64,000 nt of DNA, taken from NCBI RefSeq assembly GCF_026151205.1, contig NC_087074.1:558001-622000 (forward strand). Reading direction: 5' to 3'. The notes below the pieces were generated by a model. That model was given only the letters and a program-made list of their open reading frames with translations, searched no databases and was not told where the DNA came from. Positions 5,534 to 44,642 of this stretch are shown here, piece by piece. This DNA is from Bolinopsis microptera (Eukaryota > Ctenophora > Tentaculata > Lobata > Bolinopsidae). The translations under genes and the position numbers were made by a program. Every line of letters begins with the position of its first letter. Within the stretch, counting starts at the first letter, position 1.

Positions 5534-5665
5534 CTATTTTTGGTTGGGGTTGAAAAGCTTAGGAAGATTTTGCCAGCATTTCCAATAGTCATCATCTACT
5601 TTCTCACACGTCTTCAGTGCCCAGGTTGTTGACTTCAAACTCAGCGATGACTCGAACATGAAGGA
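5534..5665 (-). CDS. HGD: HGD coding exon k (C-terminal, stop)
   Basis: 132 bp encode '[18 protein letters not shown]' to '[14 protein letters not shown]' and TAG, matching the HGD C-terminus. Acceptor tccccag. Confidence 0.95.
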   Translation of the reverse strand, partial: SFMFESSLSLKSTTWALKTCEKVDDDYWKCWQNLPKLFNPNQK

Positions 5666-6257
5666 CTGGGGAGGGAAGGTGTGAGGGGGTGAAAAGTTGG
5701 TCACGTGAGTTAAACGCAAGCCAGGCCCCCAATTAACTAGCCGCAAAGCAATATTGGAGATTGCTTATTCATTCAACCATATTCAGCAAACGATTTAAGT
5801 AACTTGTTAGCAGCATATTATGGTTGAATGAATAAGCAATCTCCAATATTGCTTTGCAGCAGTAACTCTACTATTTTTATTGATATTGGAGGCCTGACTT
5901 GCTTTATTATTTTGGTTTTTATGAAAAATAAAATCTCTAACGGTGAGCGACAAGCCGTCTAAAAATATTTTAGTCTTCAAATTTCTCGTATTAAGCCGAA
6001 GGTTGGAGTTTTTGGATATGCTTAACAAGGCAGTTAATTGTTAACGAGGCAATATTTTTAAGTGGAGCTTGAAGCCCCACTTTTAACGTATTAACATTGT
6101 GACAACTAGTTAAATGCACTAGAGTCTAGTGGCACTAGACAGTGCATTTAACTAAAACTGTTTTGTGACAGGGATATCTATTAATATTACCGAAATTTAG
6201 TGAGTTAGGCAGTGAAGCAATTTCAAACTTCTAGTTTGAGGGTTTGATGTTTTTTGA

Positions 6258-6292
<35 letters not shown>

Positions 6293-9200
6293 ACACTACA
6301 CTCTGTATTTTAAAATACAGCTTGACCGGGGGGGGGGGGGGGGGTACACTTCACTCTGTATTTTAAAATACAGCTTGACGGGGGGGGGGGGGGGTACACT
6401 TCACTCTGTATTTTAAAATACAGCTTGACGGGGGGGGGGGGGGGGGGTACACTTCACTCTGTATTTTAAAATACAGCTTGACGGGGGGGGGGGGGGGGGG
6501 GGGGGTACACTTCACTCTGTATTTTAAAATACAGCTTGACGGGGGGGGGGTACACTTCACTCTGTATTTTAAAATACAGCTTGACGGGGGGGGGGGGGGG
6601 GTACACTTCACTCTGTATTTTAAAATACAGCTTGACGGGGGGGGGGGGGGGTACACTTCACTCTGTATTTTAAAATACAGCTTGACGGGGGGGGGGGGGG
6701 GTACACTTCACTCTGTATTTTAAAATACAGCTTGACGGGGGGGGGGGGGGTACACTTCACTCTGTATTTTAAAATACAGCTTGACGGGGGGGGGGGGGGT
6801 ACACTTCACTCTGTATTTTAAAATACAGCTTGACGGGGGGGGGGGGGGTACACTTCACTCTGTATTTTAAAATACAGCTTGACGGGGGGGGGGGGGGGGG
6901 TACACTTCACTCTGTATTTTAAAATACAGCTTGACGGGGGGGGGGGGGGGGGGGGGGGTACACTTCACTCTGTATTTTAAAATACAGCTTGACGGGGGGG
7001 GGGTACACTTCACTCTGTATTTTAAAATACAGCTTGACGGGGGGGGGGGGGGGGGTACACTTCACTCTGTATTTTAAAATACAGCTTGACGGGGGGGGGG
7101 GGGGTACACTTCACTCTGTATTTTAAAATACAGCTTGACGGGGGGGGGGGGGGGTACACTTCACTCTGTATTTTAAAATACAGCTTGACGGGGGGGGGGG
7201 GGGGGGTACACTTCACTCTGTATTTTAAAATACAGCTTGACGGGGGGGGGGGGGTACACTTCACTCTGTATTTTAAAATACAGCTTGACGGGGGGGGGGG
7301 GGGGGGGGTACACTTCACTCTGTATTTTAAAATACAGCTTGACGGGGGGGGGTACACTTCACTCTGTATTTTAAAATACAGCTTGACGGGGGGGGGGGGG
7401 GGGGGGGGGGTACACTTCACTCTGTATTTCAAAATACAGCTTGACGGGGGGGGGGGGGGTACACTTCACTCTGTATTTTAAAATACAGCTTGACGGGGGG
7501 GGGGGGGGGGGGGGTACACTTCACTCTGTATTTTAAAATACAGCTTGACGGTTGTTACTTGGCCGTGTTGTGAGGGCTATAACAGTAATATCATTTGACG
7601 GGTGAGCACTTTACTACTACTAGTACTACACTTTACGGTATATACAGACCCATTATCTTTGAGCAATTAGCAAATTAGAAGCTGCAACCGGACCCTCACT
7701 TCACATACCCGCGCTCTCAGCTCTCACTACAGCTAATTAGTTTTGCGTTACAATTGAGCGGTACCTGGGTATTATCAGCGACCCGGACTGGGTTGAGTGC
7801 AGCATTGCTGGCCCCAGTGAAGCAGTTAGCGTCGGGACCGTGTGGGGTCATGATGCTGTGCAGGGAACCTCCTCCCGGCTGGAACTCTCCTTCTTTAGCC
7901 TCGTAGTTACCGTATATCAGACCCATAAACTCGCTCATACAGTTTCCTAGGGTGTTATTGGATTATATTTTACAGAAGCAAGGCAGTGGCGTAACGTTGC
8001 CTGTTGGCGCCCCCGCCGAAATAGCGCCCCCTCCCCTTTTGGTGCGCCTCCCTAAAACTGAAAAAAACTAGGTGATTTTAGAGGATACCCCGGTAAAATC
8101 TCTAAAAAAAGTGTGTATCTAGAGAAAAACGCGCAGTTTTGCTAGTACTTTAGATAAGTTTTCGAAATTGTCCCACATTAAAACGACGATTTGGCGCCCC
8201 CCACCCCCACCCCCCCCCCCCCCCCCAAGTTTTGACGCTGTGTTTTATGTGGCCCGCAAAAAATGATATGTTGATATTAACAAATCAGGACTGCTATATA
8301 TACATATATAACTATAGGACTGCTCTATTACTAAATAATAAAACTTACTGTCCTGTAGTGTTATTGAAGAAGTTCTCTTGAAAGAATATACTCACTGTGG
8401 TAGTATGGAGGTCTGAAAGTGTGATCCTGCACAGCCCACCGAGGGGGGAATATTACAAAGTCACAGAGAGCAGTTCCTTCCAGCTGACCCGGACACGTCA
8501 GCACCGTGAAGATAGAGGGATCCTGCAAGGAGATTATCACGAAACTGGGGGGGGGGGGGGGGGGGGGACTACTTTAAGTGAAATATTAATGGGAGTAGTC
8601 TGGCATGAGCTTCAAGTTAAGGAATTACAGCTCTGTCATACTCAAACGGACTATCTTCCGTAGTGACGGCTCGCGGCCATCGCTGTAAGCCTAAAGTTGC
8701 AGGTAGTAGTCGCTGTAACCCTAAAGTTGCATGTAGTAGTCGCTGTAACCCTAAAGTTGCAGGTAGTCGCTGTAACCCTAAAGTTGCAGGTAGTCGCTGT
8801 AACCCTAAAGTTGCAGGTAGTCGCTGTAACCCTAAAGTTGCAGGTAGTCGCTGTAACCCTAAAGTTGCAGGTAGTCGCTGTAACCCTAAAGTTGCAGGTA
8901 GTCGCTGTAACCCTAAAATTGCAGGTAGTCGCTGTAACCCTAAAGTTGCAGGTAGTACAGACAACCACTAGACACTAACCGCGTGGTCGAATGCAGTTGC
9001 GTTGATAACCATAAAGTTCTTCAGGTTGTACTTGTAGGGAGCGTAGTTGCCATGCCAAGCCACCACATCAAACGGGGAATGGTCCTGGAATAGAACATGT
9101 CATGTGGGAACAAGCCACCACATCAAACGGGGAATGGTCCTGGAATAGAACATGTCATGTGGGAACAAGCCACCACATCAAACGGGGAATGGTCCTGGAA

Positions 9201-12200
9201 TAGAACATGTCATGTGGGAACAAGCCACCACATCAAACGGGGAATGGTCCTGGAATAGAACATGTCATGTGGGAACAAGCCACCACATCAAACGGGGAAT
9301 GGTCCTGGAATAGAACATGTCATGTGGGAACAAGCCACCACATCAAACGGGGAATGGTCCTGGAATAGAACATGTCATGTGGGAACAAGCCACCACATCA
9401 AACGGGGAATGGTCCTGGAATAGCACATGTCATGTGGGAACAAGCCACCACATCAAACGGGGAATGGTCCTGGAATAGAACATGTCATGTGGGAACAAGC
9501 CACCACATCAAACGGGGAATGGTCCTGGAATAGAACATGTCATGTGGGAACAAGCCACCACATCAAACGGGGAATGGTCCTGGAATAGAACATGTCATGT
9601 GGGAACAAGCCACCACATCAAACGGGGAATGGTCCTGGAATAGCACATGTCATGTGGGAACAAGCCACCACATTAAACGGGGAATGGTCCTGGAATAGAA
9701 CATGTCATGTGGGAACAAGCCACCACATCAAACGGGGAATGGTCCTGGAATAGAACATGTCATGTGGGAACAAGCCACCACATCAAACGGGGAATGGTCC
9801 TGGAATAGAACATGTCATGTGGGAACAAGCCACCACATCAAACGGGGAATGGTCCTGGAATAGAACATGTCATGTGGGAACAAGCCACCACATCAAACGG
9901 GGAATGGTCCTGGAATAGAACATGTCATGTGGGAACAAGCCACCACATCAAACGGGGAATGGTCCTGGAATAGAACATGTCATGTGGGAACAAGCCACCA
10001 CATCAAACGGGGAATGGTCCTGGAATAGAACATGTCATGTGGGAACAAGCCACCACATCAAACGGGGAATGGTCCTGGAATAGAACATGTCATGTGGGAA
10101 CAAGCCACCACATCAAACGGGGAATGGTCCTGGAATAGAACATGTCATGTGGGAACAAGCCACCACATCAAACGGGGAATGGTCCTGGAATAGAACATGT
10201 CATGTGGGAACAAGCCACCACATCAAACGGGGAATGGTCCTGGAATAGAACATGTCATGTGGGAACAAGCCACCACATCAAACGGGGAATGGTCCTGGAA
10301 TAGAACATGTCATGTGGGAACAAGCCACCACATCAAACGGGGAATGGTCCTGGAATAGAACATGTCATGTGGGAACAAGCCACCACATCAAACGGGGAAT
10401 GGTCCTGGAATAGAACATGTCATGTGGGAACAAGCCACCACATCAAACGGGGAATGGTCCTGGAATAGAACATGTCATGTGGGAACAAGCCACCACATCA
10501 AACGGGGAATGGTCCTGGAATAGAACATGTCATGTGGGAACAAGCCACCACATCAAACGGGGAATGGTCCTGGAATAGAACATGTCATGTGGGAACAAGC
10601 CACCACATCAAACGGGGAATGGTCCTGGAATAGAACATGTCATGTGGGAACAAGCCACCACATCAAACGGGGAATGGTCCTGGAATAGAACATGTCATGT
10701 GGGAACAAGCCACCACATCAAACGGGGAATGGTCCTGGAATAGAACATGTCATGTGGGAACAAGCCACCACATCAAACGGGGAATGGTCCTGGAATAGAA
10801 CATGTCATGTGGGAACAAGCCACCACATCAAACGGGGAATGGTCCTGGAATAGAACATGTCATGTGGGAACAAGCCACCACATCAAACGGGGAATGGTCC
10901 TGGAATAGAACATGTCATGTGGGAACAAGCCACCACATCAAACGGGGAATGGTCCTGGAATAGAACATGTCATGTGGGAACAAGCCACCACATCAAACGG
11001 GGAATGGTCCTGGAATAGAACATGTCATGTGGGAACAAGCCACCACATCAAACGGGGAATGGTCCTGGAATAGAACATGTCATGTGGGAACAAGCCACCA
11101 CATCAAACGGGGAATGGTCCTGGAATAGAACATGTCATGTGGGAACAAGCCACCACATCAAACGGGGAATGGTCCTGGAATAGAACATGTCATGTGGGAA
11201 CAAGCCACCACATCAAACGGGGAATGGTCCTGGAATAGAACATGTCATGTGGGAACAAGCCACCACATCAAACGGGGAATGGTCCTGGAATAGAACATGT
11301 CATGTGGGAACAAGCCACCACATCAAACGGGGAATGGTCCTGGAATAGAACATGTCATGTGGGAACAAGCCACCACATCAAACGGGGAATGGTCCTGGAA
11401 TAGAACATGTCATGTGGGAACAAGCCACCACATCAAACGGGGAATGGTCCTGGAATAGAACATGTCATGTGGGAACAAGCCACCACATCAAACGGGGAAT
11501 GGTCCTGGAATAGAACATGTCATGTGGGAACAAGCCACCACATCAAACGGGGAATGGTCCTGGAATAGAACATGTCATGTGGGAACAAGCCACCACATCA
11601 AACGGGGAATGGTCCTGGAATAGAACATGTCATGTGGGAACAAGCCACCACATCAAACGGGGAATGGTCCTGGAATAGAACATGTCATGTGGGAACAAGC
11701 CACCACATCAAACGGGGAATGGTCCTGGAATAGAACATGTCATGTGGGAACAAGCCACCACATCAAACGGGGAATGGTCCTGGAATAGAACATGTCATGT
11801 GGGAACAAGCCACCACATCAAACGGGGAATGGTCCTGGAATAGAACATGTCATGTGGGAACAAGCCACCACATCAAACGGGGAATGGTCCTGGAATAGAA
11901 CATGTCATGTGGGAACAAGCCACCACATCAAACGGGGAATGGTCCTGGAATAGAACATGTCATGTGGGAACAAGCCACCACATCAAACGGGGAATGGTCC
12001 TGGAATAGAACATGTCATGTGGGAACAAGCCACCACATCAAACGGGGAATGGTCCTGGAATAGAACATGTCATGTGGGAACAAGCCACCACATCAAACGG
12101 GGAATGGTCCTGGAATAGAACATGTCATGTGGGAACAAGCCACCACATCAAACGGGGAATGGTCCTGGAATAGAACATGTCATGTGGGAACAAGCCACCA

Positions 12201-15200
12201 CATCAAACGGGGAATGGTCCTGGAATAGAACATGTCATGTGGGAACAAGCCACCACATCAAACGGGGAATGGTCCTGGAATAGAACATGTCATGTGGGAA
12301 CAAGCCACCACATCAAACGGGGAGTGGTCCTGGAATAGAACATGTCATGTGGGAACAAGCCACCACGTCAAACGGGGAATGGTCCTGGAATAGAACATGT
12401 CATGTGGGAACAAGCCACCACATCAAACGGGGAATGGTCCTGGAATAGAACATGTCATGTGGGAACAAGCCACCACATCAAACGGGGAATGGTCCTGGAA
12501 TAGAACATGTCATGTGGGAACAAGCCACCACATCAAACGGGGAATGGTCCTGGAATAGAACATGTCATGTGGGAACAAGCCACCACATCAAACGGGGAAT
12601 GGTCCTGGAATAGAACATGTCATGTGGGAACTGGAAGGTTCAAGAAGTTTGGGGAAAATACGGGAAAATATTTGACAAAGTTTGACAATGACAACACTGA
12701 CTTATACTTATATAGGGATTTTTGAAATACCAGTGCAGTATTCTGTCCACCCTGTCAAACAGCTGCGGATTTAAACTGTTGAACACATCATTGGAGCATT
12801 CTGATTGGGACATTCTGATTGGGGCATTCTGATTGGGGCATTTTGAATTGTGTCGTGACGGTGTTGTGTTTAAGAGAAAAGTATCAACCTGGGTTAGCTT
12901 CGCTAGAGTATTATTGTGCATGTAACCCCACTATATTTGCAGCATGATCGGGGATTAGACCGGATGTTATATTGGGATTATTTGTGCAGATCATTTCTAT
13001 CAGTTCAACGGCAATCAGACTATAATTTGTTTGGGATCAGATACAATAAGTATCCAGTAAGGGGGGGGGGGGGGGGGGGGGGGGGGTACTCTGGGGTATC
13101 CAGTAAGGGGGGGGGGTACTCTGGGGTATCCAGTAAGTTACACCTTAAGTTATACCATTTAGGCTTGTGAAGGATCTCTAGGAGGGCCTTGTTGGTGGTT
13201 TATCATATTATGTTTAATGTGTTTTAGTGTGTAATATTTGATTTTATTGAAACACGGGTACTAACTCTGCTAAACTGAAAAAAAAATTCTGAAACTTAGG
13301 TGAATAAGTGTACAACGTGCTAAACCGAAGTTCAGACTGACCAGTGAAAATGGGCGAGCGTACCAAGTGTCATTTTAATTAGAAGTTTTAGTCAGTGATT
13401 TATTATTGAAGCTTGTAATTACAATAACTAATGCTTTTATAAATACTTTAATTAATTGTTTGTTCCGTTATTCTTTTTCCTTCCTCTTTTCCTTGTCATC
13501 CCCTTTAGTTTTAAGATTCTTGCTATAAATGGCTACAGCTAACACTATTAATGCTAAGTACCAAACAACAAGTGGGAGGTGGATCGTTGGTATACCATTA
13601 AATCGATTTAACACCGCAATTCCAGTCGCAAGCCTGGGACCACTACTAGCATAGTCACAACATCTACAAAGCTGCCATATAGCCTGACTGACAATTTTCT
13701 CGACTGACTGACAATGTTTCTTCTTTTCCCCATTTAGAATACAAAGATTAGTACATTTTAGCTTATGATTAATATTCTATTTTTACCTATAGTTTACCTA
13801 GATATATCAATGAATCTTTCTATGATTCCTATATGATGTAATAAAGTTTTGTTGCCTTACTTTTTAGAACGGCTCTGACACTTGTGTCATAATCCATATG
13901 GATTATGGGCGGTATAAAAGCACATTATTTCATTTCCATTTCATCTTTCTTTTTGTAATTTCCGAACTTGTTCTTTAATCTTTATTTGTCGAAATCATTC
14001 ATTTCAAAATTCTATTTCATCACATCTTCATATTTATAACAATTACAAATTAACAATACTGCACTCATCATATTATCGGCCATCACGTGACATTGGTCTC
14101 GATATTAAGTTTTTTAATCAGCGATCTTCCTAAAAGATATCTGCATGCTTCTATACATGCACCACACCCAAGGTACAAGTTACCCATTACATTTTATATT
14201 TGCAACCATCTTCTTTACTCTAGCGGGTGTAACACGATGTAAGTGAAGTGAGGTTGAACTGATCGAGTAGACTATAGATCGGCCACGAGAGGCTGAACTT
14301 TAATTTAGAGTTTAAATTTCCAGATTTTAGAGTATTTCTATTCAACTCAAATTGTAATTTCGAGCTTCCCTTCTTCGTAGGGAGCTGTGCTTACCCCACC
14401 AGTAAGTGGAATATAAAAGTTAAACTGTTTTTGCGCATTTGTTGGTGAAGCGTTTTGTCTCATTTATGAAGCCTATAAATATTTCCTGTCGCACTGAGGT
14501 AAATTGAGAATCCTCCTAGTTGAACAGATCACTTTAGGCACCAACCCCCCAACAACCATTAAATTATTAATCGTCTTCTCTTCCATGAGACAGTCCCCAC
14601 TGTGAAGGGATGCATTAGTACCTAGCGTGCCAGATGATTTTGTGGTGTTATAAAATTGTCACAACCCCTCGCAACAATCGTGTCATACGAAATAAATCAG
14701 GTACAATATTGAGTTGCTCCATTAAAGTAATAAGTATACAGGCAAGTGTAGTATACAGGTATACTACACTATACCTGTACCTCCAATAAGTATACAGTTA
14801 TACCTGTACCTCCAATAAGTATACAGTTATACCTGTACCTCCAATAAGTATACAGGTATACCTGTACCTCCAATAAGTATACAGGTATACCTGTACCTCC
14901 AATAAGTATACAGTTATACCTGTACCTCCAATATGTATACAGTTATACCTGTACCTCCAATAAGTATACAGTTATACCTGTACCTCCAATAAGTATACAG
15001 TTATACCTGTACCTCCAATAAGTATACAGTTATACCTGTACCTCCAATAAGTATACAGTTATACCTGTACCTCCAATATGTATACAGGTATACCTGTACC
15101 TCCAATAAGTATACAGGTATACCTGTACCTCCAATAAGTATACAGTTATACCTGTACCTCCAATAAGTATACAGTTATACCTGTACCTCCAATAAGTATA

Positions 15201-32445: not shown

Positions 32446-32523
<78 letters not shown>

Positions 32524-35500
32524 TACTAGCCACTAGCTACTAGCCACTAGCCAGGGTGTGTCATATTTCTGTAAATAATTCTATTCGCTTAACCACGTAC
32601 AACGTATCTAGTATAACATAACACTAGGTATAGTACATAATATATTGCATAGCACTAGGTATAGTACATAATAATATATCAGTACAATGTACATACTTGT
32701 TAGCCATACTGGAGTTGCAGGTGTAGATATGTAATAATATAACAGTACATACTTGTTAGCCATACTGGAGTTGCAGGTGTAGATATGTAATAATATATCA
32801 GTACATACTTGTTAGCCATACTGGAGTTGCAGATGTAGATATGTAATATTATATCAGTACATACTTGTTAGCCATACTGGAGTTGCAGATGTAGATATGT
32901 AATATTATCACACTTTCGAGCCAAATTTGGCAGGAAAGCAGAATTGATATTACATGCCCCGTTGGGGAGCACTGGCTCTCACCCGGGGGCATGAAATATC
33001 AATCAGTTGCTCAGAGAGAGCCCGATATTCCCATAGGAACAAGGAGCCCACTCTCAACAACTGTTCTACTACTGTGAGGTACTGATTTAAATAAAGATTT
33101 AAATCAACAACCTGAAGTAGTCTATGACCGTAAATGCAATGATCAGATGAAATTTCCAGGATCGGGAAAAATTTATATCTATACCTGGTTTTAAAAATAT
33201 TTCCTTGCGTTTGAGATGTGTCAAGCGAAATAAAATTTTTTGTTGTAAAACTTTTTTAAGCTGTTCCTTTTTTACTGCACTTCATAGTTCAAAGTCTAAT
33301 TAGGCTTCGGATGATGAAACTAAGTAAAAACTTCCTGGCTTGTACGAGCTTTAAATGACTTAAGGTTACTGAAAACGAGATCAAAGTTTACAAGCAGACT
33401 TGAAAGTTGCACAAAGTTTTGGTACTTGTCAGCGATACAATCAATCAGGCTTATTAATTTCCTTAATCGCTTACTTGAAATTAAAAAGGAAGTGTTAGAA
33501 CAAACTACAGTCACCCTCACAAAAAACAGTAAACACTAAACGATGTTTGATTAATTCGAACGAAGAAAACACACAAAACAAAGCCAGATTTCAGCCATTT
33601 CAGACCTCAATTTTAACCCCCTCTGATCCCTTCTTTGAGCCATATTCCATATAGAAATTGTGCAGAAATTAAACTAGGCTTTTCCAAACCGGTTTCGCCT
33701 AGATTAGCTTGCGAAATTCGTGGCTGATCTATAAACAGACTGATAAAGAGATTTATAGATTCTGTACAATAAAGAGCGAAAATTCTATCCCAGGACCAGT
33801 TTGAATTTTAGTTAGTGCAAATAAGTGCAATAAAAACATCCTATAAAATATATTATCTATATAAATATATCAAGCGACGAATGACGTAACTTAATCAGCT
33901 AATCTGGTTAGTGGTTATAAATCAGTCTGGGCACTGTGGCAAACAGGTCCGATGATTAATGTGCTGCCATTCTTTAGACCAATTCAATATTGGTAACAGT
34001 ACGGGTGAACTACCTGGCCATGACCAGGGTGGTTATAGGCTGGTGGAGTACTGCGTTCTAAAATGTTGAAGAGATACATTTAATTATTACAACTGTTCTG
34101 ATAATTTCCAGTTCAGATGATTTCTAGCGAAGCAGATTATGGCAAATAATGGCAAGTAAAGATGAATACTGACTAAGAACTAAGTAGCTACTATACTCGA
34201 TAAAATTCTAAGTCAACGATTACAAGTTGCATTGATTAAATCATTCTGAAATAACAGACAATCAAGAATCAAGACGGACGATGATATTGTTCATGTAAAT
34301 TAGGGTGTGTAGTGTATAATGTGGACTGATAAATAGCCCACTGCAGCTCTATTCAAATACAAGAACTAGGAAATTCTTTCACCTTATCGCAGATACAGAT
34401 TATACGATAAGGACTGTGATGTATAATCAACGCTTAAACGGATGTTCTATACATCATACATCTACAGTTTTAATGACTCCAAAAATATCTAATAGAAATA
34501 AAGTATTAGAATCACCAAACATCGATTGATTTGCAGGATGTAATAATTACGTATCAAACGCGCTCGTGGCGGAATATTCTAGACGCCAATAAGTACAAGT
34601 CCCATGGTCGATAAACATATTAATATTCAATGCACTACGTATCACTTATCTGTATAAAGCAAATTGGGCGCGGCATACAGCATTCACTGTGTCATAAATG
34701 TGATGAGCACGTAAGATCTTAATTGTACGTATTGTATCTTCGATATCTGAAATACTAACTCATGATCGAGAGCTATATATAGCTTGGACATTATAAACAT
34801 AAATAAGTTCGACATGTCTAGTTTGCTTTGGCGAGATTTATAACTAACGTTTGATCAAATTCTGCTTTCCCGGCCAAATTTGGCTCCAAATAATGGCAAA
34901 TAATGGCAAGTAAAGATGAATACTGACTAAGAACTAAGTAGCTACTATACTCGATAAAATTTTAAGTCAACGATTACAAGTTGCATTAATTAAATCATTC
35001 TGAAATAACAGACAGTCAAGAATCAAAACGGACGATAACATTTTTGATGTGAATTAGGGCGTGTGGTGTATAATGTGGACTGATAGATTATAGACACTAA
35101 TTATAGCTCCACAACTCTATTTAAATACAAGAACTAGGAAATACTTTCACCTTATCGCAGATACAGATTATACGATAAGGACTGTGATGTATAATCAACG
35201 CTTAAACGGATGTTCTATACATCATACATCTACAGTTTTAATGACTCCAAAAATATCTAATAGAAATAAAGTATTAGAATCACCAAACATCGATTGATTT
35301 GCAGGATGTAATAATTACGTATCAAACGCGCTCGTGGCGGAATATTCTAGACGCCAATAAGTACAAGTCCCATGGTCGATAAACATATTAATATTCAATG
35401 CACTACGTATCACTTATCTGTATAAAGCAAATTGGGCGCGGCATACAGCATTCACTGTGTCATAAATGTGATGAGCACGTGAGATCTTAATTGTACGTAT

Positions 35501-38500: not shown

Positions 38501-41500
38501 CATTATAAACATAAATTATAAGTTCGACATGTCTAGTTTGCTTTGGTGAGATTTATAACTAACGTTTGATCAAATTCTGCTTTCCGGCCAAATTTGGCTC
38601 CAAAGAAAGTGTGATAAAACATTAATCACATGCCTTCTCATGCGATATCAACATTTTCAAAACTCGGCAAGCCTCGTGATTGAAAATGTCGATATAACCC
38701 TCGGCAAGCCTCGGGAAATATCGAAACTTTCGCTAACTCGGCAAGCCTCGTGGGCGAAAGTTTTGATATCGCATGAGAAGGCATGTGATAAATGTATAAT
38801 ATAACAGTACATACTTGTTAGCCATACTGGAGTTGCAGATGTAGATATGTAATAATATTGCAGTACATACTTGTTAGCCATACTGGAGTTGCAGATGTAG
38901 ATATGTAATAATATATCAGTACATACTTGTTAGCCATACTGGAGTTGCAGATGTAGATATGTAATAATATATCAGTACATACTTGTTAGCCATACTGGAG
39001 TTGCAGATGTAGATATGTAATAATATAACAGTACATACTTGTTAGCCATACTGGAGTTGCAGATGTAGATATGTAATATTATATCAGTACATACTTGTTA
39101 GCCATACTGGAGTTGCAGATGTAGATATGTAATAATATATCAGTACATACTTGTTAGCCATACTGGAGTTGCAGATGTAGATATGTAATAATATAACAGT
39201 ACATACTTGTTAGCCATACTGGAGTTGCAGATGTAGATATGTAATAATATAACAGTACATACTTGTTAGCCATACTGGAGTTGCAGATGTAGATATGTAA
39301 TAATATATCAGTACAACGTATCTAGTATAACATAGCACTAGGTATAGTACATAATATATTGCAGTAGAATGTATCTAGTATAACATAGCACTAGGTATAG
39401 TACATAATAATATATCAGTACAATGTACATACTTGTTAGCCATACTGGAGTTGCAGGTGTAGATATGTATAGCAGCCCCGTATCGAGTACACGGGTCCCC
39501 AGCCCCTCCCAACGTGTGTATACCCTGGGGTTATAACTGTTAAATGTTTGGATACCTAAAGTATAAACAATTCACGGGTGAGTGTTACTTTAGAGTCAAC
39601 CTACTTTAAATATAATAGAGGTTCAGCTCTCGACTGAGTTAACCTACTTTAAATATAATAGAGGTTCAGCTCTCGACTGAGTCAACCTATTTTAAATATA
39701 ATAGAGGTTCAGCTCTCGACTGAGTCAACCTACTTTAAATATAATAGAGGTTCAGCTCTCGACTGAGTTAACCTACTTTAAATATAATAGAGGTTCAGCT
39801 CTCGACTGAGTCAACCTACTTTAAATATAATAGAGGTTCAGCTCTCGACTGAGTCAACCTACTTTAAATATAATAGAGGTTCAGCTCTCGACTGAGTTAA
39901 CCTACTTTAAATATAATAGAGGTTCAGCTCTCGACTGAGTCAACCTACTTTAAATATAATAGAGGTTCAGCTCTCGACTGAGTCAACCTACTTTAAATAT
40001 AATAGAGGTTGAGCTCTCGACTGAGTTAACCTACTTTAAATATAATAGAGGTTCAGCTCTCGACTGAGTCAACCTACTTTAAATATAATAGAGGTTCAGC
40101 TCTCGAGTCTCGACTGAGTCAACCTACTTTAAATATAATAGAGGTTCAGCTCTCGACTGAGTCAACCTACTTTAAATATAATAGAGGTTCAGCTCTCGAC
40201 TGAGTCAACCTACTTTAAATATAATAGAGGTTCAGCTCTCGACTGAGTCAACCTACTTTAAATATAATAGAGGTTCAGCTCTCGACTGAGTCAACCTACT
40301 TTATATAGAGGTTCAGCTCTCACCTGATGTATTGACATTTGACATTGTAGTATAAGGGAAACAGAACATAAAATAGACATTTTATAGGATATAGAGATAT
40401 AAGAGCCGTTTACATATTCTGTAGAAGAAACTTCTTATTATACCACAGTTGAGAAAAGCAGGCCTAGTATAGCTTTCTAGTATAACTGTCTTGTAATGTC
40501 AAGCAGCCAGCTTTTCACAGTGTGCTTTATATTATTATAATATTATAATATTATAATATTATAATATTATAATATTATAATATTATAATATTATAATATT
40601 ATAATATTATAATATTATAATATTATAATATTATAATATTATAATATTATAATATTATAATATTATAATATTATAATATTATAATATTATAATATTATAA
40701 TATTATAATATTATAATATATATTATTATTTGCACTGTTTTAAACCCCACATTCCCAGTGCTTGCTTCTCTTGTTATATTTATACCTTTAGTGCAACTTT
40801 TATTGCATTCCTTTTACTTTTCACCCAACAAGCTTAGTAAAAGGATAATAGCTCTATATAATATAGTTTATTGTTCGACTCCATGAAATTCTCTATGATT
40901 ATTGACAGTACACTATATAGATAAAACATCGCCTACCTTCACGAAATCAACTCGGTCAGCAGCAGGCAAATCGAACGGTTTCCATCGCAGCTGAAATTGA
41001 AAAAGTATTTCCAAACTTCATCAAACAATTATTTCAAGTATTCAGTATTAGAATTGACGCTATGACTGGGAATTTGGTCACATAAAGTAACATGCCCTAC
41101 CGTGCCCGAATAAACGCACTGTTTAGTCTGTACTGCTGAATTGTCTACATAATATTCCATAATGCTAAACTTTTACGTCTGGACTTTATTTTGACATCAA
41201 ATTTTCTAGAGCCATAATGTCTACTTGTCTATTTTTTATTCTGATTCGAAGAAACTTAATTATTTACTATTTGCAAGACCACAAATCTTGATGCTTAATC
41301 CTGAGTTTTGACATATGCTTGCACGCATGTGGCAAAGCATAGCTGGCAAAGTATCAGGACCGTAATTTTAACATAAGGTACCGAAGATTATCCGGGTCAA
41401 TAAGAAAGCATCATCTTTAACACCTGTGTAAACAACACTAAACAACACTAAACAACACTAAACAACACTAAACAACACTAAACAACACCAAACAACACTA

Positions 41501-42667
41501 AACAACACTAAACAACACCAAACAACACTAAACAAAACTAAACAACACTAAACAAAACTTAACAAAACTAAACAACACTAAACAACACTAAACAACACTA
41601 AACAACACTAAACAACACTAAACAACACTAAACAACACTAAACAACACCAAACAACACTAAACAACACTAAACAACACCAAACAACACTAAACAACACTA
41701 AACAACACCAAACAACACTAAACAAAACTAAACAACACTAAACAAAACTTAACAAAACTAAACAACACTAAACAACACTAAACAACACTAAACAACACTA
41801 AACAACACTAAACAACACCAAACAACACTAAACAAAACTAAACAACACTAAACAAAACTTAACAAAACTAAACAACACTAAACAACACTAAACAACACTA
41901 AACAACACCAAACAACACTAAACAAAACTAAACAACACTAAACAAAACTTAACAAAACTAAACAACACTAAACAACACTAAACAACACTAAACAACACTA
42001 AGCAACACTAAACAACACTAAACAACACTACAACACTAAACAACACTACAACACTAAACAACACCAAACAACACTAAACAACACTAAACAACACTAAACA
42101 ACACTAAGCAACACTAAACAACACTAAACAACACTACACCTGTTTGGGAGTGACAGGTACGTCCTTAAAGTCGCTGGTGAAGTGTCCCGCCTCCTCCTCT
42201 TGGTACGGGTAGTGCTTTACTGAAGGTCTTATTCTATACAACCACCTGTCATGTTGTAAGATTGCAATAAATTACAGGCAAAAGTTGTGACAATATCTTA
42301 TTGATTCGCTCGACTAATTACCCTAATAATGCCATTGTTTTATGATAAAATTATAATAAAGTAACCGTTTTATGGCCATACATGCAGAACAACATCTTCC
42401 GAACGACAAACGGATATAATAAAATGAAGTAGCTTATTCTTACGAACAAACCTCAAACAAAATAAAAATAGCAACATAATGACAAGCCTGGTAGACTCAC
42501 GTGCGTTGGTTGGTCTCACGAGGTGCAGTGAATGCAGTTCCGGACAGCTGCTCAGCGTACAGCCCGTACGGACAGCGCTGAGGGTTGTTCTGTCCCTCCG
42601 GCAGTGCTCCTGGTAAACACTCTGACGCAAACTCGTTCCCAAACCCGCTCATGTACTCGTACCCTCC
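5534..42667 (-). CDS. HGD: Homogentisate 1,2-dioxygenase gene (11 coding exons found; first exon not found)
   Basis: The enzyme opens the ring of homogentisate with O2 to give maleylacetoacetate in tyrosine/phenylalanine catabolism; it is a cytosolic non-haem iron(II) enzyme. Eleven minus-strand exons were joined by eye: 42501-42667, 42140-42245, 40937-40990, 39433-39524, 17451-17565, 15959-16058, 15289-15407, 8980-9084, 8396-8522, 7765-7946 and 5534-5665. All have GT-AG borders and compatible phases and sum to 1299 nt (432 codons plus TAG), against about 445 residues in human HGD. The iron ligands (His in 'PPYYH', Glu in 'SEFMG', His in 'MTPHGPD') and the active-site 'AWHGNY' are present. 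No stop or frameshift was seen, so the gene looks functional. Only the short exon carrying the start ATG, upstream of 42667, was not found. The introns are packed with minisatellites, several copied from the gene's own splice junctions, and the largest intron contains other genes. Confidence 0.95.
5744..5856. repeat. 38-bp perfect inverted repeat (hairpin) in last HGD intron
   Basis: Bases 5744-5781 are the exact reverse complement of 5819-5856, separated by a 37-base loop. The arms contain 'attggagattgcttattcat'. The hairpin lies about 80 bases upstream of the last exon's acceptor. It may be a small foldback MITE or an RNA stem in the pre-mRNA. Confidence 0.85.
6258..7553 (+). repeat. G-tract/palindrome minisatellite (about two dozen copies)
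   Basis: The repeat has a constant part, tacacttcactctg followed by the 18-bp palindrome CTGTATTTTAAAATACAG (sharing the ctg) and cttgac. The constant part alternates with a pure G run of about 8 to more than 30 bases. It lies inside the HGD intron between exons j and k. The plus strand could form G-quadruplexes and the HGD-sense strand is C-rich. The Gly/Pro-rich open frames here are artefacts. The listed G-run lengths may contain sequencing error. Confidence 0.95.
7765..7946 (-). CDS. HGD: HGD coding exon j
   Basis: 182 bp encode '[19 protein letters not shown]', '[18 protein letters not shown]' and '[11 protein letters not shown]', including two iron ligands. Acceptor acaccctag, donor gtaccg. 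Confidence 0.96.
7984..8240 (+). mobile_element. hAT-like MITE fragment (CAGTGGCGTAAC end)
   Basis: It begins 'cagtggcgtaacgttgcctg', the terminal sequence also found inverted at 59389-59406. It continues with 'ttttgctagtac' and 'ttttcgaaattgtcccaca', which occur inverted in the element at 59211-59406. The far end runs into a C-rich tract and has no clear matching terminus, so this copy is probably truncated. CAGNGGCGTA-type ends are typical of some animal hAT elements. Confidence 0.65.
8396..8522 (-). CDS. HGD: HGD coding exon i
   Basis: 127 bp encode '[16 protein letters not shown]' to '[20 protein letters not shown]' and the iron-ligand histidine. Acceptor tccttgcag, donor gtgagt. A poly-G run on the plus strand (about 8548-8567) lies just upstream in the intron. 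Confidence 0.96.
8684..8956. repeat. 27-bp minisatellite, about 10 copies
   Basis: Unit 'cgctgtaaccctaaagttgc' plus 'aggtagt'; the first two copies carry 3-bp expansions. It lies in the 457-bp HGD intron between exons h and i. Frames through it are repeat artefacts. Confidence 0.95.
8980..9084 (-). CDS. HGD: HGD coding exon h
   Basis: 105 bp encode '[20 protein letters not shown]' and '[15 protein letters not shown]', which contains the active-site WHGN histidine. Acceptor ctattccag, donor gttagt. Its first 29 bases and acceptor are the unit of the 3.6-kb 55-bp array upstream. Confidence 0.96.
9056..12632 (-). repeat. 55-bp minisatellite of an HGD acceptor junction, about 65 copies
   Basis: Read in the HGD sense, each unit is 26 intronic bases ending 'catgttctattccag' followed by the first 29 bases of exon h (gaccattccccgtttgatgt and 9 more). 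The copy nearest 9084 is the real exon edge. The array is almost perfectly homogeneous, with only single-base variants (for example near 9423, 9643 and 12324-12367). The intron therefore contains about 65 near-identical 3' splice sites. Confidence 0.97.
12633..14734. other. HGD intron between exons g and h, unique part
   Basis: Mostly AT-rich sequence. It contains three copies of 'cattctgattggg' around 12797-12840, a short G-rich repeat at 13046-13138 ('tatccagtaaggggg' with 'tactctgggg'), and a palindrome aatccatatggatt near 13891. No gene is recognised. Confidence 0.5.
14735..15290 (-). repeat. 29-bp minisatellite starting at the donor of HGD exon g, about 19 copies
   Basis: In HGD sense the unit is gtatacttattggaggtaca plus 'ggtatacct', with ggtata/gttata-type variants on the plus strand. 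The first unit begins exactly at the exon g donor (CAG then gtatac). Many units reproduce 'cag gtatac', so the array repeats donor-like sites. Confidence 0.93.
15289..15407 (-). CDS. HGD: HGD coding exon g
   Basis: 119 bp encode '[20 protein letters not shown]' to '[13 protein letters not shown]'. Acceptor cgttccag, donor gtatac. A 29-bp array begins at the donor itself. Confidence 0.95.
15620..16020 (-). repeat. 67-bp minisatellite of HGD exon f donor junction, 6 copies
   Basis: Each unit holds the last 62 coding bases of exon f and the first intronic bases (gtaag). The copy reaching 15959 is the true exon edge and the other five lie in the intron. Units are joined at 'agtagggg', a microhomology present both in the exon ('gctagtagggg') and after the donor ('gtaagtagggg'). 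Single-base differences occur, such as cagaatg versus caggatg. Confidence 0.97.
15959..16058 (-). CDS. HGD: HGD coding exon f
   Basis: 100 bp encode '[20 protein letters not shown]' followed by '[13 protein letters not shown]'. Acceptor ttgtttgcag, donor gtaagt. The last 62 bases plus 5 intronic bases are tandemly repeated in the following intron. Confidence 0.95.
16120..16345. repeat. 22-bp minisatellite, about 10 copies
   Basis: Unit 'gtgtttgcagtgcagtgtga' plus 'gg'; some copies have 'cagttcag'. It lies about 60 bp upstream of exon f in the HGD sense. The cysteine/histidine-rich frame through it is an artefact. Confidence 0.93.
16346..17122. other. HGD intron, no feature recognised
   Basis: Unique AT-rich sequence between exon f and the MITE at 17123. 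Short frames here show no recognisable domain. Confidence 0.5.
17123..17377. mobile_element. MITE-like element with 21-bp perfect terminal inverted repeats
   Basis: The left end 'atgagattgctttcagagga' plus t is the exact reverse complement of 17357-17377. An inner partial repeat (gcaagcaatcctctcatcct) adds further foldback. At 255 bp without coding capacity it is a typical non-autonomous DNA transposon in an HGD intron. Confidence 0.75.
17451..17565 (-). CDS. HGD: HGD coding exon e
   Basis: 115 bp encode '[19 protein letters not shown]' and '[12 protein letters not shown]'. Acceptor ccgtttcag, donor gtatta. The first roughly 50 bases are copied three more times upstream, at 17722-17785, 17992-18055 and 18202-18265. 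Confidence 0.95.
17585..18270 (-). repeat. Compound array: 20-bp CRE/E-box repeats alternating with copies of HGD exon e acceptor
   Basis: Three blocks of a 20-bp unit (tgacgtcacaccacgtgccg), with 7, 10 and 7 TGACGTCA sites, are separated by copies of the 5' edge of exon e with its acceptor (ccgtttcag plus about 50 exonic bases). Each 20-bp unit contains a full CRE palindrome TGACGTCA and a CACGTG E-box. The structure is a higher-order repeat in which exon fragment plus satellite was duplicated together. Whether the CRE/E-box sites bind factors is unknown. Confidence 0.93.
18440..19475. repeat. 11-bp minisatellite, about 94 copies
   Basis: Unit 'taatacaactg' with occasional 'taaaacaactg' variants. 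Because 11 is not a multiple of three, all three minus-strand frames remain open and give long Tyr/Ser/Cys/Val/Leu repeat frames, which are artefacts. Confidence 0.97.
19476..20577. other. Intronic/intergenic sequence upstream of the nested receptor
   Basis: AT-rich, with a poly-C run near 19859-19875. It probably includes the receptor's promoter, but no element can be called. Frames at 19924-20121 and 20109-20426 show no domain. Confidence 0.45.
20578..22183 (+). CDS. Class A (rhodopsin-like) G-protein-coupled receptor, 3 exons, nested in HGD intron
   Basis: Exons 20578-20726, 20951-21045 and 21246-22183 join with GT-AG borders and matching phases to give about 393 residues. The start ATG opens an extracellular N-terminus with an N-glycosylation site (NVT). 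Seven membrane segments can be placed: TM1 ('[16 protein letters not shown]'), TM2 spanning the exon 2/3 junction, TM3 ending '[12 protein letters not shown]' (a DRY-box position with only the Arg kept), TM4 ('[17 protein letters not shown]'), TM5 ('[20 protein letters not shown]'), TM6 ('[20 protein letters not shown]') and TM7 with 'NSLVNPLIF', the NPxxY variant. A His/Pro/Gln-rich extracellular loop precedes TM3. It is an orphan; the ligand and G protein cannot be inferred. The gene is transcribed opposite to its HGD host. Confidence 0.9.
22184..22672. other. Receptor 3' flank
   Basis: AT-rich sequence after the receptor stop codon. No clear AATAAA signal was found in the first few hundred bases. 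Nothing else is recognised. Confidence 0.4.
22824..23947 (-). mobile_element. Mutator-like (MULE) DNA transposon, short and decayed
   Basis: The ends are inverted copies of a satellite-like sequence: cgtactgtagtgcgacacgt on the left matches the reverse complement of the right end, and further 'gtagtgcgac' motifs extend about 150 bp inward. The flanks are cgaatggtt (22815-22823) and cgaattgtt (23948-23956), 8 of 9 identical, as expected for the 9-bp target duplication of MULEs. The paralogous copy at about 26638-26660 shows the empty site with a single copy. It contains the remains of a transposase gene. Confidence 0.85.
23168..23490 (-). pseudogene. MULE transposase C-terminal fragment
   Basis: The minus-strand frame ends at 23168 (TAG) and includes '[20 protein letters not shown]', '[20 protein letters not shown]' and '[12 protein letters not shown]'. 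This is the pattern around 'NNAVEGWH.RF..L....HP.IW.FI..L..EQ' in Mutator-like transposases. Just upstream the match continues in another frame ('DYYERTW' near 23465-23490), so there is a frameshift around 23450-23470. The catalytic core is absent or unrecognisable, so the element cannot be autonomous. Confidence 0.8.
24188..25265 (-). CDS. Secreted cysteine-rich protein with eight pacifastin/VWC-like repeats, frameshifted after repeat 4
   Basis: The start at 25265 is chosen because it opens a good signal peptide ('[18 protein letters not shown]'); an in-frame ATG further upstream adds a non-signal extension. Repeats of about 40 residues follow with spacing C-x16-C-x2-C-x-C-x8-C-x4-C and core '[20 protein letters not shown]', resembling pacifastin-type protease inhibitor and VWC domains. 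Four repeats are read before a TGA at 24678. Four more follow in a shifted frame to a TGA at 24188-24190. Against its sister repeat, repeat 4 lacks two bases just before the stop, which explains the shift. The gene either encodes a four-repeat protein or is a recent pseudogene; an assembly error in near-identical repeats is possible. Repeats 1-3 are almost identical at DNA level, implying recent duplication or conversion. Confidence 0.78.
25490..25990 (+). pseudogene. Non-LTR retrotransposon reverse-transcriptase relic (C-terminal part)
   Basis: The frames '[14 protein letters not shown]' (near 25535-25575) and '[20 protein letters not shown]' (from 25680) through '[12 protein letters not shown]' and 'TLDSVKF' parallel, in order, the C-terminal part of the element at 43106-44394 ('EKDLGVLTTRNLDW', 'DLIETFKITTGKVDYGQDLF', 'NYWNKVPSSVKE', 'SVDAFKARL'). 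Stops and frame changes show that it is dead. Confidence 0.75.
26271..26818. repeat. Dispersed duplication, copy B
   Basis: Similar to copy A (22673-24140) but without the MULE. It retains the unoccupied target site around 26638-26660 and contains about 240 bases at 26393-26629 that are missing from copy A. Confidence 0.85.
27060..27622 (-). other. Possible remnant of a multi-pass membrane protein
   Basis: Two minus-strand frames (27060-27263 and 27272-27622) have hydrophobic stretches such as '[14 protein letters not shown]' and '[20 protein letters not shown]'. The second is loosely reminiscent of UNC-93-like transporters. A poly-C run at 27481-27499 lies inside the longer frame. No start, splice structure or conserved motif is convincing, so this could be a pseudogene or chance. 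Confidence 0.25.
27955..28668. repeat. 31-bp minisatellite, about 23 copies
   Basis: Unit 'aaactactactttctagtct' plus 'ggcttcattgt', highly homogeneous. It lies in the large HGD intron with no exon nearby. Confidence 0.97.
28669..31440. other. HGD intron, no gene recognised
   Basis: AT-rich. It contains (tag)n at 30305-30360 and a G-run/C-run pair at 30481-30529 that could pair as a hairpin. Hydrophobic short frames at 29129-29434 and 30939-31205 lack recognisable domains. Confidence 0.45.
31460..31752. repeat. Degenerate 'tgtgacac' short tandem repeat
   Basis: Repeats of gtgacact/gtgacaat mixed with 'tatgaagtg' blocks. The Ser/His-rich reverse frame is an artefact. Confidence 0.9.
31912..32012. 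repeat. Three copies of a 30-33 bp unit, then cacgtgcacac repeats
   Basis: Units contain 'gggcaaacagtgcgttttaa' and 'tcctgagt'. A separate short array of 'gtcacgtgcaca' lies at about 32190-32240. Confidence 0.8.
32447..32553. repeat. 7-bp satellite (ccactag)n
   Basis: About 15 copies of ccactag, with a few ctactag variants. Confidence 0.95.
32598..32906 (-). repeat. HGD exon d donor-derived 56-bp array, left block (4 copies)
   Basis: It begins with a copy of the sequence next to exon d (compare 39315-39430, 'cgtatctagtataacata'). Four 56-58-bp units follow, made of the last about 35 bases of exon d, its donor (gtatgt) and about 21 intronic bases. The array is cut at about 32905 by the 2947-bp tandem units and resumes at 38799. 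Confidence 0.9.
35675..35845. mobile_element. Foldback MITE (27-bp terminal inverted repeats), first copy
   Basis: The ends 'atcacatgccttctcatgcg' plus 'atatcaa' are perfectly inverted at the right end. The interior has three 'cggcaagcctcg' motifs, and arms such as gattgaaaatgtcgatat add further pairing. Frames through it are artefacts. Confidence 0.85.
38622..38792. mobile_element. Foldback MITE, second copy
   Basis: Same sequence as 35675-35845 at the unit offset of 2947 bases. Confidence 0.85.
38799..39432 (-). repeat. HGD exon d donor-derived 56-bp array, right block (about 9 copies)
   Basis: In HGD sense each unit contains 'catatctacatctgcaactc' then 'cagtatggctaacaa', the 3' end of exon d, followed by the gtatgtactg donor. 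The genuine exon edge is the copy ending at 39433. Array copies mostly have 'atctgc', while the exon and its nearest copies have 'acctgc'. Confidence 0.93.
39433..39524 (-). CDS. HGD: HGD coding exon d
   Basis: 92 bp encode '[11 protein letters not shown]' to '[14 protein letters not shown]' plus 2 nt, matching the HGD 'GLHTLCGAGD...AIHIFLCN' region. Acceptor ataaccccag, donor gtatgt. The 3' 35 bases and the donor are the seed of the 56-bp arrays at 38799-39300 and 32683-32906. Confidence 0.9.
39585..40325. repeat. 43-bp minisatellite, about 17 copies
   Basis: Unit 'tcaacctactttaaatataa' plus 'tagaggttcagctctcgactgag' in two parts, with tca/tta variants alternating irregularly. It begins about 60 bp upstream of exon d in the HGD sense. 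Confidence 0.95.
40527..40725. repeat. 8-bp (tataatat)n array
   Basis: About 25 perfect copies of a self-complementary AT-only unit, able to form cruciforms. Confidence 0.95.
40937..40990 (-). CDS. HGD: HGD coding exon c
   Basis: A 54-bp exon encodes 18 residues, '[18 protein letters not shown]', matching the HGD 'LRWKPF..VDFV' segment. Acceptor aatttcag, donor gtaggc, phase 0 on both sides. Confidence 0.93.
41427..42138. repeat. 10-bp (aacaacacta)n array reaching the donor of HGD exon b
   Basis: About 70 copies with patterned variants (caccaa, caaaacta, caaaactt) that recur as higher-order blocks near 41500, 41690, 41810 and 41900. The last unit overlaps the donor sequence gtgtagtgttgttt. 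Confidence 0.95.
42140..42245 (-). CDS. HGD: HGD coding exon b
   Basis: 106 bp encode '[13 protein letters not shown]' to 'DVPVTPKQ' after completing the split Thr codon. Acceptor catgacag, donor gtgtag. A 10-bp array begins within three bases of the donor GT. Confidence 0.93.
42501..42667 (-). CDS. HGD: HGD coding exon a (N-terminal)
   Basis: It encodes 55 codons plus 2 nt, including '[11 protein letters not shown]', '[20 protein letters not shown]' and '[14 protein letters not shown]', all conserved HGD N-terminal motifs. The acceptor is ttgccag and the donor gtgagt. It starts in phase 0, so an upstream exon with the start codon is expected. The first 15 bases and the acceptor are repeated in the 46-bp array upstream. 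Confidence 0.93.
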
Positions 42668-43110
42668 CTGGCAAGGTACTGTTAGCTATGTTTACTGTGT
42701 ACTCGTACCCTCCCTGGCAAGGTACTGTTAGCTATGTTTACTGTGTACTCGTACCCTCCCTGGCAAGGTACTGTTAGCTATGTTTACTGTGTACTCGTAC
42801 CCTCCCTGGCAAGGTACTGTTAGCTATGTTTACTGTGTACTCGTACCCTCCCTGGCAAGGTACTGTTAGCTATGTTTACTGTGTACTCGTACCCTCACTG
42901 GCAAAGTACTGTTAGCTATGTTTAGTGTGTACTCTTACCCTCCCTGGCAAGGTACTGTTAGCTATGTTTACTGTGTACTCGTACCCTCCCTGGCAAGGTA
43001 CTGTTAGCTATGTTTACTGTGTACTCGTACCCTCCCTGGCAAGGTACTGTTAGCTATGTTTACTGTGTACTCGACACTCGTACCCTCCCTGGCAATGTAC
43101 TGTTAGCTAT
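42653..43110 (-). repeat. 46-bp array of HGD exon a acceptor junction, block 1 (about 10 copies)
   Basis: In HGD sense the unit is 31 intronic bases ending 'agtaccttgccag' plus the first 15 bases of exon a (ggagggtacgagtac). The copy at 42667 is the real junction. Variants include a 'cgacactcg' insertion near 43070. Confidence 0.95.
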
Positions 43111-44394
43111 AATAATAATAATAATAATAGGATTATGGCCACATAGCCATCTCGACAAAACTTGAAACCCAACTGCACTCTACGCTATTGCAGTTCGCAC
43201 AATATTTTCAAAAAGAAAAATGTTCCTATCCGGAACATGTAATGATTAATTATTTTAAGGACGTTAACATGTAGTTCTGAATTTATTAATCAAGATACAT
43301 TGATTCCTCGGTATTTAGCAATCAATGGGTTATTAGACATGAAATATGCATATGAATCATGCTCACATGTATTTATTTTTGACATCAAGGTTTCGCTGAG
43401 ATCCCAGAAGTGACCCTTTGACGATGCTCCACTCGCTATCAGTTCAGTTTTATAACATTGAAGTCGAGCTTTGAATGCGTCTACTGAACTGGCTTCTTTA
43501 ACCGAACTTGGTACTTTGTTCCAGTAATTGGCAACCCGGTTACTGAGGACCTGATTTCCTCTTTTATCTTTTAGGATCTTGGTACCACTACGTGATATCC
43601 TGAAAAGATCTTGTCCATAGTCCACTTTACCCGTCGTTATTTTAAAGGTTTCAATAAGATCACCCCTCATACGGCGCTCCAGTAGTGTTGTTAACTGGAG
43701 GATTCTCAGTCTCTCGTCGTATGGTAGGATACCAATCCCGTCGATTATTCGTGTAAATTCTCTTTGAACATCTTCTATCTTCTTAATAGTCCTCCAGTTT
43801 CCGTGCTCTGCTGGTAGATTCCACACTTGCACAGCGTATTCGATGTGAGGTCGAACTAGAGTTCTGTAGACATTTAGCATAACAAATTTGTTACGGCAGA
43901 TCAAGCTTCGTTTGATCCAGCCTATAACAGACTTTGCTTTTTTCACGGACTTATCTATATGGTCACTCCAGTCCAGGTTTCTGGTAGTTAGAACTCCAAG
44001 ATCCTTTTCTGACTTCACTTGGGGGAGGCATTCCCCATTCATGAAGTACTCATGCATTGGATTGTTACGCCCAATATGTAGAACCTTACACTTGCCATCC
44101 TTCACATTGAATCTTAGGAGCCATTCCTTCTCCCACGCATTGAGTTTCAGTATATCATCTTGTGCAACACTGTGCTTAGCTGTGCTCGTTACTAGCTTAA
44201 GATCGTCAGCAAAGAGTGATACGAAGCTCTCAATTCCATCAGGGAGATCATTTATGAAGAGCAGGAAGAGCAGGGGGCCCAGCACGGTTCCTTGAGGGAC
44301 CCCGGATGTTACAGCAAAGACTCTAGAAAATGATGATCCAACCCTGACGCGAAATGTTCTTCCTGTTAGAAAGTCTAGTGTGTACTAAGTCTAG
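43106..44394 (-). mobile_element. 5'-truncated non-LTR retrotransposon inserted into the 46-bp array
   Basis: It carries a reverse-transcriptase reading frame and ends at its 3' side with a (tat/aat)n microsatellite tail (43110-43128 on plus), typical of several LINE clades. The 5' end is cut near 44376 inside the RT domain, so it is a dead-on-arrival copy. The interrupted minisatellite resumes at about 44395. Confidence 0.85.
43290..44375 (-). pseudogene. Reverse transcriptase C-terminal portion (non-LTR, CR1/jockey/RTE-like)
   Basis: The frame is open from about 44375 to a stop at 43290. It shows 'GVPQGTVLGPLLFLLFINDL', then 'SLFADDLKL', which has the FADD catalytic aspartates, followed by the thumb/C-terminal region 'EKDLGVLTTRNLDW', 'YRTLVRPHIEYAVQVWN' and 'SNRVANYWNKVP'. 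Fingers, endonuclease and ORF1 are missing. There are no internal stops, so the insertion is fairly young. Confidence 0.88.
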
Positions 44395-44642
44395 TCTAAG
44401 TTTAGTGTGTACTCTTACCCTCCCTGGCAAGGTACTGTTAGCTATGTTTACTGTGTACTCGTACCCTCCCTGGCAAGGTACTGTTAGCTATGTTTAGTGT
44501 GTACTCGTACCCTCCCTGGCAAGGTACTGTTAGCTATGTTTACTGTGTACTCGACACTCGTACCCTCCCTGGCAATGTACTGTTAGCTATGTTTAGTGTG
44601 TACTCGTACCCTCCCTGGCAAGGTACTGTTAGCTATGTTTAT
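44395..44642 (-). repeat. 46-bp array of HGD exon a acceptor junction, block 2 (about 5 copies)
   Basis: Same unit as 42653-43110. One copy with the 'cgacactcg' insertion and 'ggcaatgtac' variant is shared with the copy immediately left of the retrotransposon. Confidence 0.93.

Follow-up and report, generated by a model that had tools for sequence, protein, structure and literature searches.

Tandem duplications that span exon-intron boundaries, known as mirage minisatellites, have been reported from amphioxus in Adh3, in the globins BflGb6 and BflGb9 and in troponin C, with similar repeats in PGBD5 (PMC3087553, PMC3902484). In the sections of these papers considered here, they are described from 5' as well as 3' boundaries, in many copies that carry AG or GT and in units of 10-72 bp and 150-160 bp (PMC3087553, PMC3902484), and are reported to occur without interference in regular splicing (PMC3087553). 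The part considered of a further source treats tandem genomic duplication as a route to intron gain, following the Rogers model and with a case in a potato RdRp (PMC4974935).

The window (the whole 64,000-nucleotide stretch of Bolinopsis microptera DNA that was analysed) contains arrays of this kind at the exon edges of a homogentisate 1,2-dioxygenase (HGD) gene. Judged by their sequence, the HGD junction arrays are mirage-type minisatellites, a kind known from amphioxus and not a new object. As in the amphioxus mirages considered, the HGD units span the exon-intron boundary at donors and acceptors, and their copies carry AG or GT. The HGD arrays differ in that they occur in a ctenophore, reach up to 65 copies per junction and occupy several junctions of one gene, and the ctenophore arrays are known here from the letters of one assembly. 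Because amphioxus mirages had already been described, most of the novelty that the sequence-only reading had claimed for the HGD junction arrays falls away. Intron gain by tandem duplication, as described in the source above, likewise copies gene sequence and its splice motifs in tandem; there a new intron is created, whereas the HGD arrays lie at the ends of introns in an intact gene. They are the same kind of array as ordinary intronic minisatellites, many of which occur in the window without exon sequence; unlike these, the HGD junction units include exon sequence and a splice site. Among the titles and abstract openings listed for ctenophore tandem repeats and splice sites, no report of junction arrays in ctenophores was found. 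They receive no mention in the passages considered of the Hormiphora genome paper, which gives 13% repeats by Tandem Repeats Finder (PMC8527503).

An HGD gene with arrays at its exon edges

The gene on the minus strand of the window is an intact HGD gene. A profile search of this strand assigned Pfam HgmA domains to the exons one by one, and the 11 joined exons, separated by ten GT..AG introns and in frame throughout, form a single open frame (428 codons), whose match to human HGD (1ey2) runs along its length (E 1.7e-197). No HGD exon was identified upstream of 42655 on the minus strand of the window; the ATG in exon 2 permits a protein beginning MSGFGNE. Exons and arrays are listed in Table 1.

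Table 1. Exons and arrays of the HGD gene, followed by arrays from elsewhere in the assembly (unprefixed positions are those of the window)
Feature	Position	Strand	Remarks
HGD exon 2, first coding exon found	42655-42501	-	ATG at 42652
HGD exon 3	42245-42140	-	joined gene model
HGD exon 4	40990-40937	-	edges without junction copies
HGD exon 5	39524-39433	-	joined gene model
HGD exon 6	17565-17451	-	joined gene model
HGD exon 7	16058-15959	-	joined gene model
HGD exon 8	15407-15289	-	joined gene model
HGD exon 9	9084-8980	-	joined gene model
HGD exon 10	8522-8396	-	edges without junction copies
HGD exon 11	7946-7765	-	edges without junction copies
HGD exon 12, last, carries stop	5665-5534	-	acceptor without junction copies
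46-bp x 9.8 array over 5' edge of exon 2	42652..43110	-	overlaps exon 2 by 4 bp
Further 46-bp-unit copies beyond reverse-transcriptase-like fragment	44396..44647	-	TRF and reading of letters
10-bp x 71 array, exon 3 donor (42140)	41429..42136	-	TRF start 3 bp into intron
53-bp x 2.4 array between exon 5 donor and 56-bp array	39300..39427	-	TRF
56-bp x 9.4 array from exon 5 donor junction	38792..39315	-	37 exon bases + GTATGTAC
Four further 56-bp-unit copies beyond 5.9-kb insert	32689..32912	-	junction-copy search
Compound array, exon 6 acceptor	17513..18276	-	TRF rows 210 + 270 bp
67-bp x 6 array, exon 7 donor	15618..16022	-	64 exon bases common, then GTA..
29-bp x 18 array, exon 8 donor	14770..15288	-	begins at first intron base
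55-bp x 65 array, exon 9 acceptor	9056..12631	-	unit = 29 exon + 26 intron bases with AG
Mirage, donor, AMP-binding gene	C9:14207974		59 bp, ~53 exon bp; 23 exact donor-string copies
Mirage, acceptor, same locus further upstream	C9:14209731		82 bp x 2, ~60 exon bp; position, open frame, splice sites
Mirage, acceptor, acetyl-CoA-synthetase-like gene	C7:14163057		69 bp, 58 exon bp; 16 copies by string
Mirage, donor, beside myosin exon	C13:10329620		31 bp, ~13 exon bp; position, open frame, splice sites
Candidate mirage	C11:11964837		72 bp, TTTCAG|ACGAG; not tied to known exon
Near-identical junction duplications	C7:13952664, C7:14159138		5 exon bases; small differences; could be haplotypes
Four arrays abutting or overlapping a splice site	C3:9157283, C2:20663289, C13:6710106, C2:20651302

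We searched for copies of the 16 bases round each boundary at the 21 HGD edges, accepting at least 14 identical bases within 25 kb, and then extended the matches. Copies of the true junction were found at 4 of the 21 edges, two donors (exons 5 and 7) and two acceptors (exons 6 and 9), with units that share 29-64 exon bases plus the splice site. The exon 9 acceptor has 64 such copies (29 exon bp in common), the exon 5 donor 13 (37 exon bp) and the exon 7 donor five (64 exon bp), while the compound array at exon 6 holds three extra copies of 53 exon bases and the acceptor, with 20-bp repeats between them. Together these are 85 extra copies, all 85 of which retain AG or GT. The same search (16 bases, within 25 kb) gave no junction copies at the other 17 edges, three of which still touch or lie near arrays: the exon 8 donor, the exon 3 donor and the 5' edge of exon 2.

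The sequence-only reading had placed exon bases and a splice site within the array unit at five HGD edges. This holds at 15959, 17565, 9084 and 39433; the acceptor at 42667 is uncertain. Its view that the pattern recurs within one gene and leaves many redundant splice sites is borne out by the copies at these four edges, as is the start of two arrays at or near donors, at the first intron base for 15289 and 3 bp inside the intron for 42140. For the donor at 39433 the unit does contain the exon bases and the junction, but the array is not contiguous with the exon: 170 nt separate it from the nearest copy of the 56-bp unit, and four of the 13 copies are ~6.5-6.7 kb off, past a 5.9-kb insert. This insert (32902-38795), which splits the 56-bp array, contains two head-to-tail copies of a 2,947-bp segment that has inverted repeats close to its ends; compared at this offset, pieces of 202-300 nt are 100% identical. 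The layout suggests a transposon-like insertion that has in turn undergone duplication.

At exon 2, two candidate acceptor AGs, before 42667 and before 42655, both lie within the 46-bp unit, which has 16 or 4 bases in common with the exon depending on which AG is taken. Trans-spliced leaders are reported to be common on ctenophore mRNAs, in the part of the Hormiphora paper considered (PMC8527503). Since they are common, no upstream exon was found and the ATG is at 42652, this array edge may be a trans-splice acceptor or lie in the 5'UTR, rather than being a cis acceptor. The two halves of the 46-bp array are parted by a reverse-transcriptase-like frame (43290-44285) with a weak RVT_1 match below the curated cut-off.

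Array placement and mirages in other genes

To assess the position of arrays relative to exon edges, every array was reduced to a single unit and given a random position outside exon interiors. HGD itself raised the hypothesis, and the window is far denser in arrays than the gene sample described below, so the P values for HGD are descriptive and post hoc: 7 of 27 arrays, where 1.1 are expected, lie no more than 10 bp from an exon edge (P 0.00025), and 5 against 0.9 at 0 bp tolerance (P 0.00075). Here the compound exon 6 array was entered once (17513-18276, period 210), replacing the TRF row 17588-18199, and the exon 5 array among the seven is the 53-bp array at 39300-39427, not the 56-bp array. 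If arrays are kept at full length and the TRF row at exon 6 is left in place, the count is 6 against 1.4 expected (P 0.0005). The poor fit to random intronic satellites that had been proposed from the letters agrees with these values.

For an independent sample, we took exon matches of the CCT, myosin and AMP-binding families, giving 77 loci, each an exon with 1.5 kb flanks, which together with one 8-kb stretch merge into 37 segments of 172,155 bases. These hold 43 counted arrays (period at least 8, score at least 80). Exon edges in this sample are the edges of HMM matches and hence approximate; 20 exon matches of the sampled families fall outside the segments examined, and transporter and kinesin exon matches were left out of every count. 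At 10 bp tolerance, 8 of the 43 arrays lie at the edge of an exon match, where 2.9 are expected (P 0.005), with 8 against 3.7 at 20 bp (P 0.03), 5 against 2.5 at 5 bp (P 0.09) and 5 against 2.2 at 0 bp (P 0.06). A stricter list omits 24 matches that hold a stop, as such matches can extend into intron; it gave 6 against 2.2 at 10 bp (P 0.017), 6 against 2.8 at 20 bp (P 0.05), 3 against 2.0 at 5 bp (P 0.32) and 3 against 1.7 at 0 bp (P 0.23). Full-length arrays, with a near-identical list of 106 exon matches, gave 8 against 3.7 (P 0.023). The excess at 10 bp is modest, 2.7- to 2.8-fold, and is gone at 0-5 bp.

We read 32 sample arrays of period at least 18 with their flanks, unblinded. Four are clear mirages near CCT, myosin or AMP-binding exons and 21 did not read as junction arrays; the remaining classes are given in Table 1. 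Junction arrays in Bolinopsis microptera are not confined to HGD. Among the eight sample arrays near an edge, only C9:14207974 is a full mirage, the rest abutting the edge or lying near it. The other three mirages are outside the placement counts, their exons being without an entry among the exon matches. The exon at C9:14207974 is identified as AMP-binding by Pfam (E 5.7e-9), and that at C7:14163057 has a weak match (best E 0.046) in which 17 of 17 listed hits are acetyl-CoA synthetases. A Pfam search of the peptides at C7:14163057, C9:14209731, C13:10329620 and the C7 pair (C7:13952664 and C7:14159138) returned no hit, so these exon calls rest on position, frame and splice sites. Read in the exon frame, the 69-bp unit at C7:14163057 contains a stop.

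Origin of the junction arrays

To account for what is observed, namely the anatomy of the junction arrays beside an intact exon set, their presence in further genes and a degree of excess at junctions, we favour, with a probability of about 0.6, small random tandem duplications of which the junction-spanning ones are tolerated in the intron, followed by minisatellite growth. A small duplication (~30-80 bp in the simple cases) would straddle an exon edge and so double a stretch of exon together with its splice site and a little of the intron. Splicing would go on using the copy joined to the remainder of the exon, as the one nearest to that exon's opposite splice site, and the outer copies would fall within the intron and be spliced out. 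Exon definition would be the ground for this tolerance. Duplications in the exon interior would alter the protein, leaving mainly the junction-spanning ones to survive among those that touch exons. Extra copies would later expand and homogenise like any minisatellite, so that tens of splice sites are left idle. In addition to tolerance, mutation may be biased towards donors.

Several features bear on the tolerance account. In five arrays, the minor-base rates are 0.000-0.020 in the exon and intron parts, and the junction copies are nearly identical, the outcome expected of minisatellite turnover. Of the 11 unit lengths examined, nine are not multiples of 3, which together with the stop in the 69-bp unit means that splicing at a wrong copy would in most cases disrupt the protein. 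The three clean cases that can be read have breakpoint overlaps of 1 bp (exon 9), 3 bp (exon 7) and none (82-bp duplication); in the other arrays the overlaps are long or uninterpretable (C7 pair 11 bp, exon 8 26 of 29). The detached exon 5 array counts against the account. Moreover, if duplications were placed at random and simply tolerated, no excess over uniform placement would be expected, yet there is some excess in placement and a 14-fold excess of donor-motif triplets (below), so tolerance alone may not suffice.

A process targeted to junctions, in which DNA round splice donors is duplicated oftener than other intron DNA, is the strongest rival, although we consider it unlikely; transcription-linked nicking or R-loops can be suggested as a cause. 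We searched 264.65 Mb in 232 contigs, on both strands, for three copies of an 8-mer spaced 20-50 nt apart, with the reversed pattern as control. The donor triplet AGGTAAGT gave 1491 matches against 12 reversed and AGGTGAGT gave 1351 against 188, together 2842 against 200 (14-fold), where matches count copies and not arrays, are overdispersed, and are tallied by letters irrespective of exon position. Single AGGTRAGT occurs 19232 times against 15615 reversed (1.23-fold, array copies included), leaving donor triplets ~11-fold enriched over their reversed forms after normalising, in favour of targeting. So is the spread of AGGTGAGT, with 9 separate places in C1:0-17.65 Mb among the first 100 of its 1351 matches, against five places in the whole genome (9 matches) for the scrambled control ATGGAAGT. 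However, TGAAGGTA, the reverse of ATGGAAGT, gave 487 matches; the controls range widely (9, 12, 188, 487), and the donor contrast is smaller and uneven against the scrambled pair. AGGTAAGT was found at five places in C1:0-3.1 Mb among the matches listed (about the first hundred), two of which have one common 32-bp unit that may be a dispersed satellite. The acceptor triplet YTTYCAGG gave 990 matches against 261 reversed, and the single acceptor motif 40 against 16 in local sequence outside arrays; normalised by the latter, only ~1.5-fold of the triplet excess is left, and we rejected it as a signal. The local 236 kb, made up of gene sample and window, held too few donor motifs for a useful count. 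The array excess at sample exon edges also speaks for targeting, whereas the survival of junction-spanning copies is already explained by tolerance.

These data do not establish the junction-targeted duplication proposed in the sequence-only reading: donor triplets exceed their reversed controls and the sample shows an excess at 10 bp, but there is none at 0-5 bp, the controls vary and acceptors are weak. An excess over randomised array positions, the comparison that it had suggested, likewise appears in the gene sample at 10 bp and not at closer tolerance.

That random intronic minisatellites touch exon edges by chance, with HGD an extreme draw from an array-rich region, we judge improbable. 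Such an origin would suit the share of bases in arrays, 41% in the window against 5.5% in the gene-sample loci, and the non-significant sample excess at 0-5 bp (P 0.06-0.09; stricter list 0.23-0.32). It is at odds with the HGD placement (7 of 27 against 1.1, P 0.00025), the sample placement at 10 bp (8 against 2.9, P 0.005; stricter 6 against 2.2, P 0.017), the donor motif excess and the four more mirages among 32 arrays.

Selection for redundant splice sites, for example to strengthen or regulate splicing, is very improbable: AG or GT is kept in 85 of 85 copies, but the copies are near-identical throughout, in exon and intron parts alike, which makes this retention uninformative. We also compared exon and intron variability as a sign of selection and set the comparison aside, as it had no consistent direction in five arrays, three of which have few intron columns. 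Nor do we give any real weight to an assembly artefact; assembly is difficult where near-identical units form long arrays, but several genes show the pattern with different units, the C7 pair carries one short junction duplication with small differences (could be haplotypes), and resequencing (PGBD5) and RT-PCR (globins) are reported for amphioxus in the sections considered.

Beyond the tolerance account, a broader proposition is that small tandem duplications in this lineage are biased to 5' splice sites, and that mirages are a genome-wide source of redundant sites and new intron, independent in ctenophores and lancelets; we offer this tentatively and regard it as doubtful. Mirages, so far described in a handful of lancelet genes in the sources considered, are now found in several ctenophore genes, and their origin becomes testable genome-wide. 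They would provide natural experiments on the choice that the splicing machinery makes among tens of near-identical splice sites, as well as sequence from which introns may grow or be gained.

Other features of the window

Within the intron that separates HGD exons 5 and 6 lies a Rhodopsin-type GPCR frame on the plus strand (21203-22183; 7tm_1 E 2.5e-11), a predicted nested intronic gene; hundreds of nested intronic genes are reported for the ctenophore Hormiphora in the part of its genome paper considered (PMC8527503). Adjoining HGD on the minus strand are Peptidase S15 / PepX-like frames (1070-3412). Very long arrays lie outside the HGD exons, at 44863-50717 (37 bp x 158) and 59394-63666 (35 bp x 122), and a 595-codon open frame (56892-58679) mostly coincides with a 66-bp array (56933-58585).
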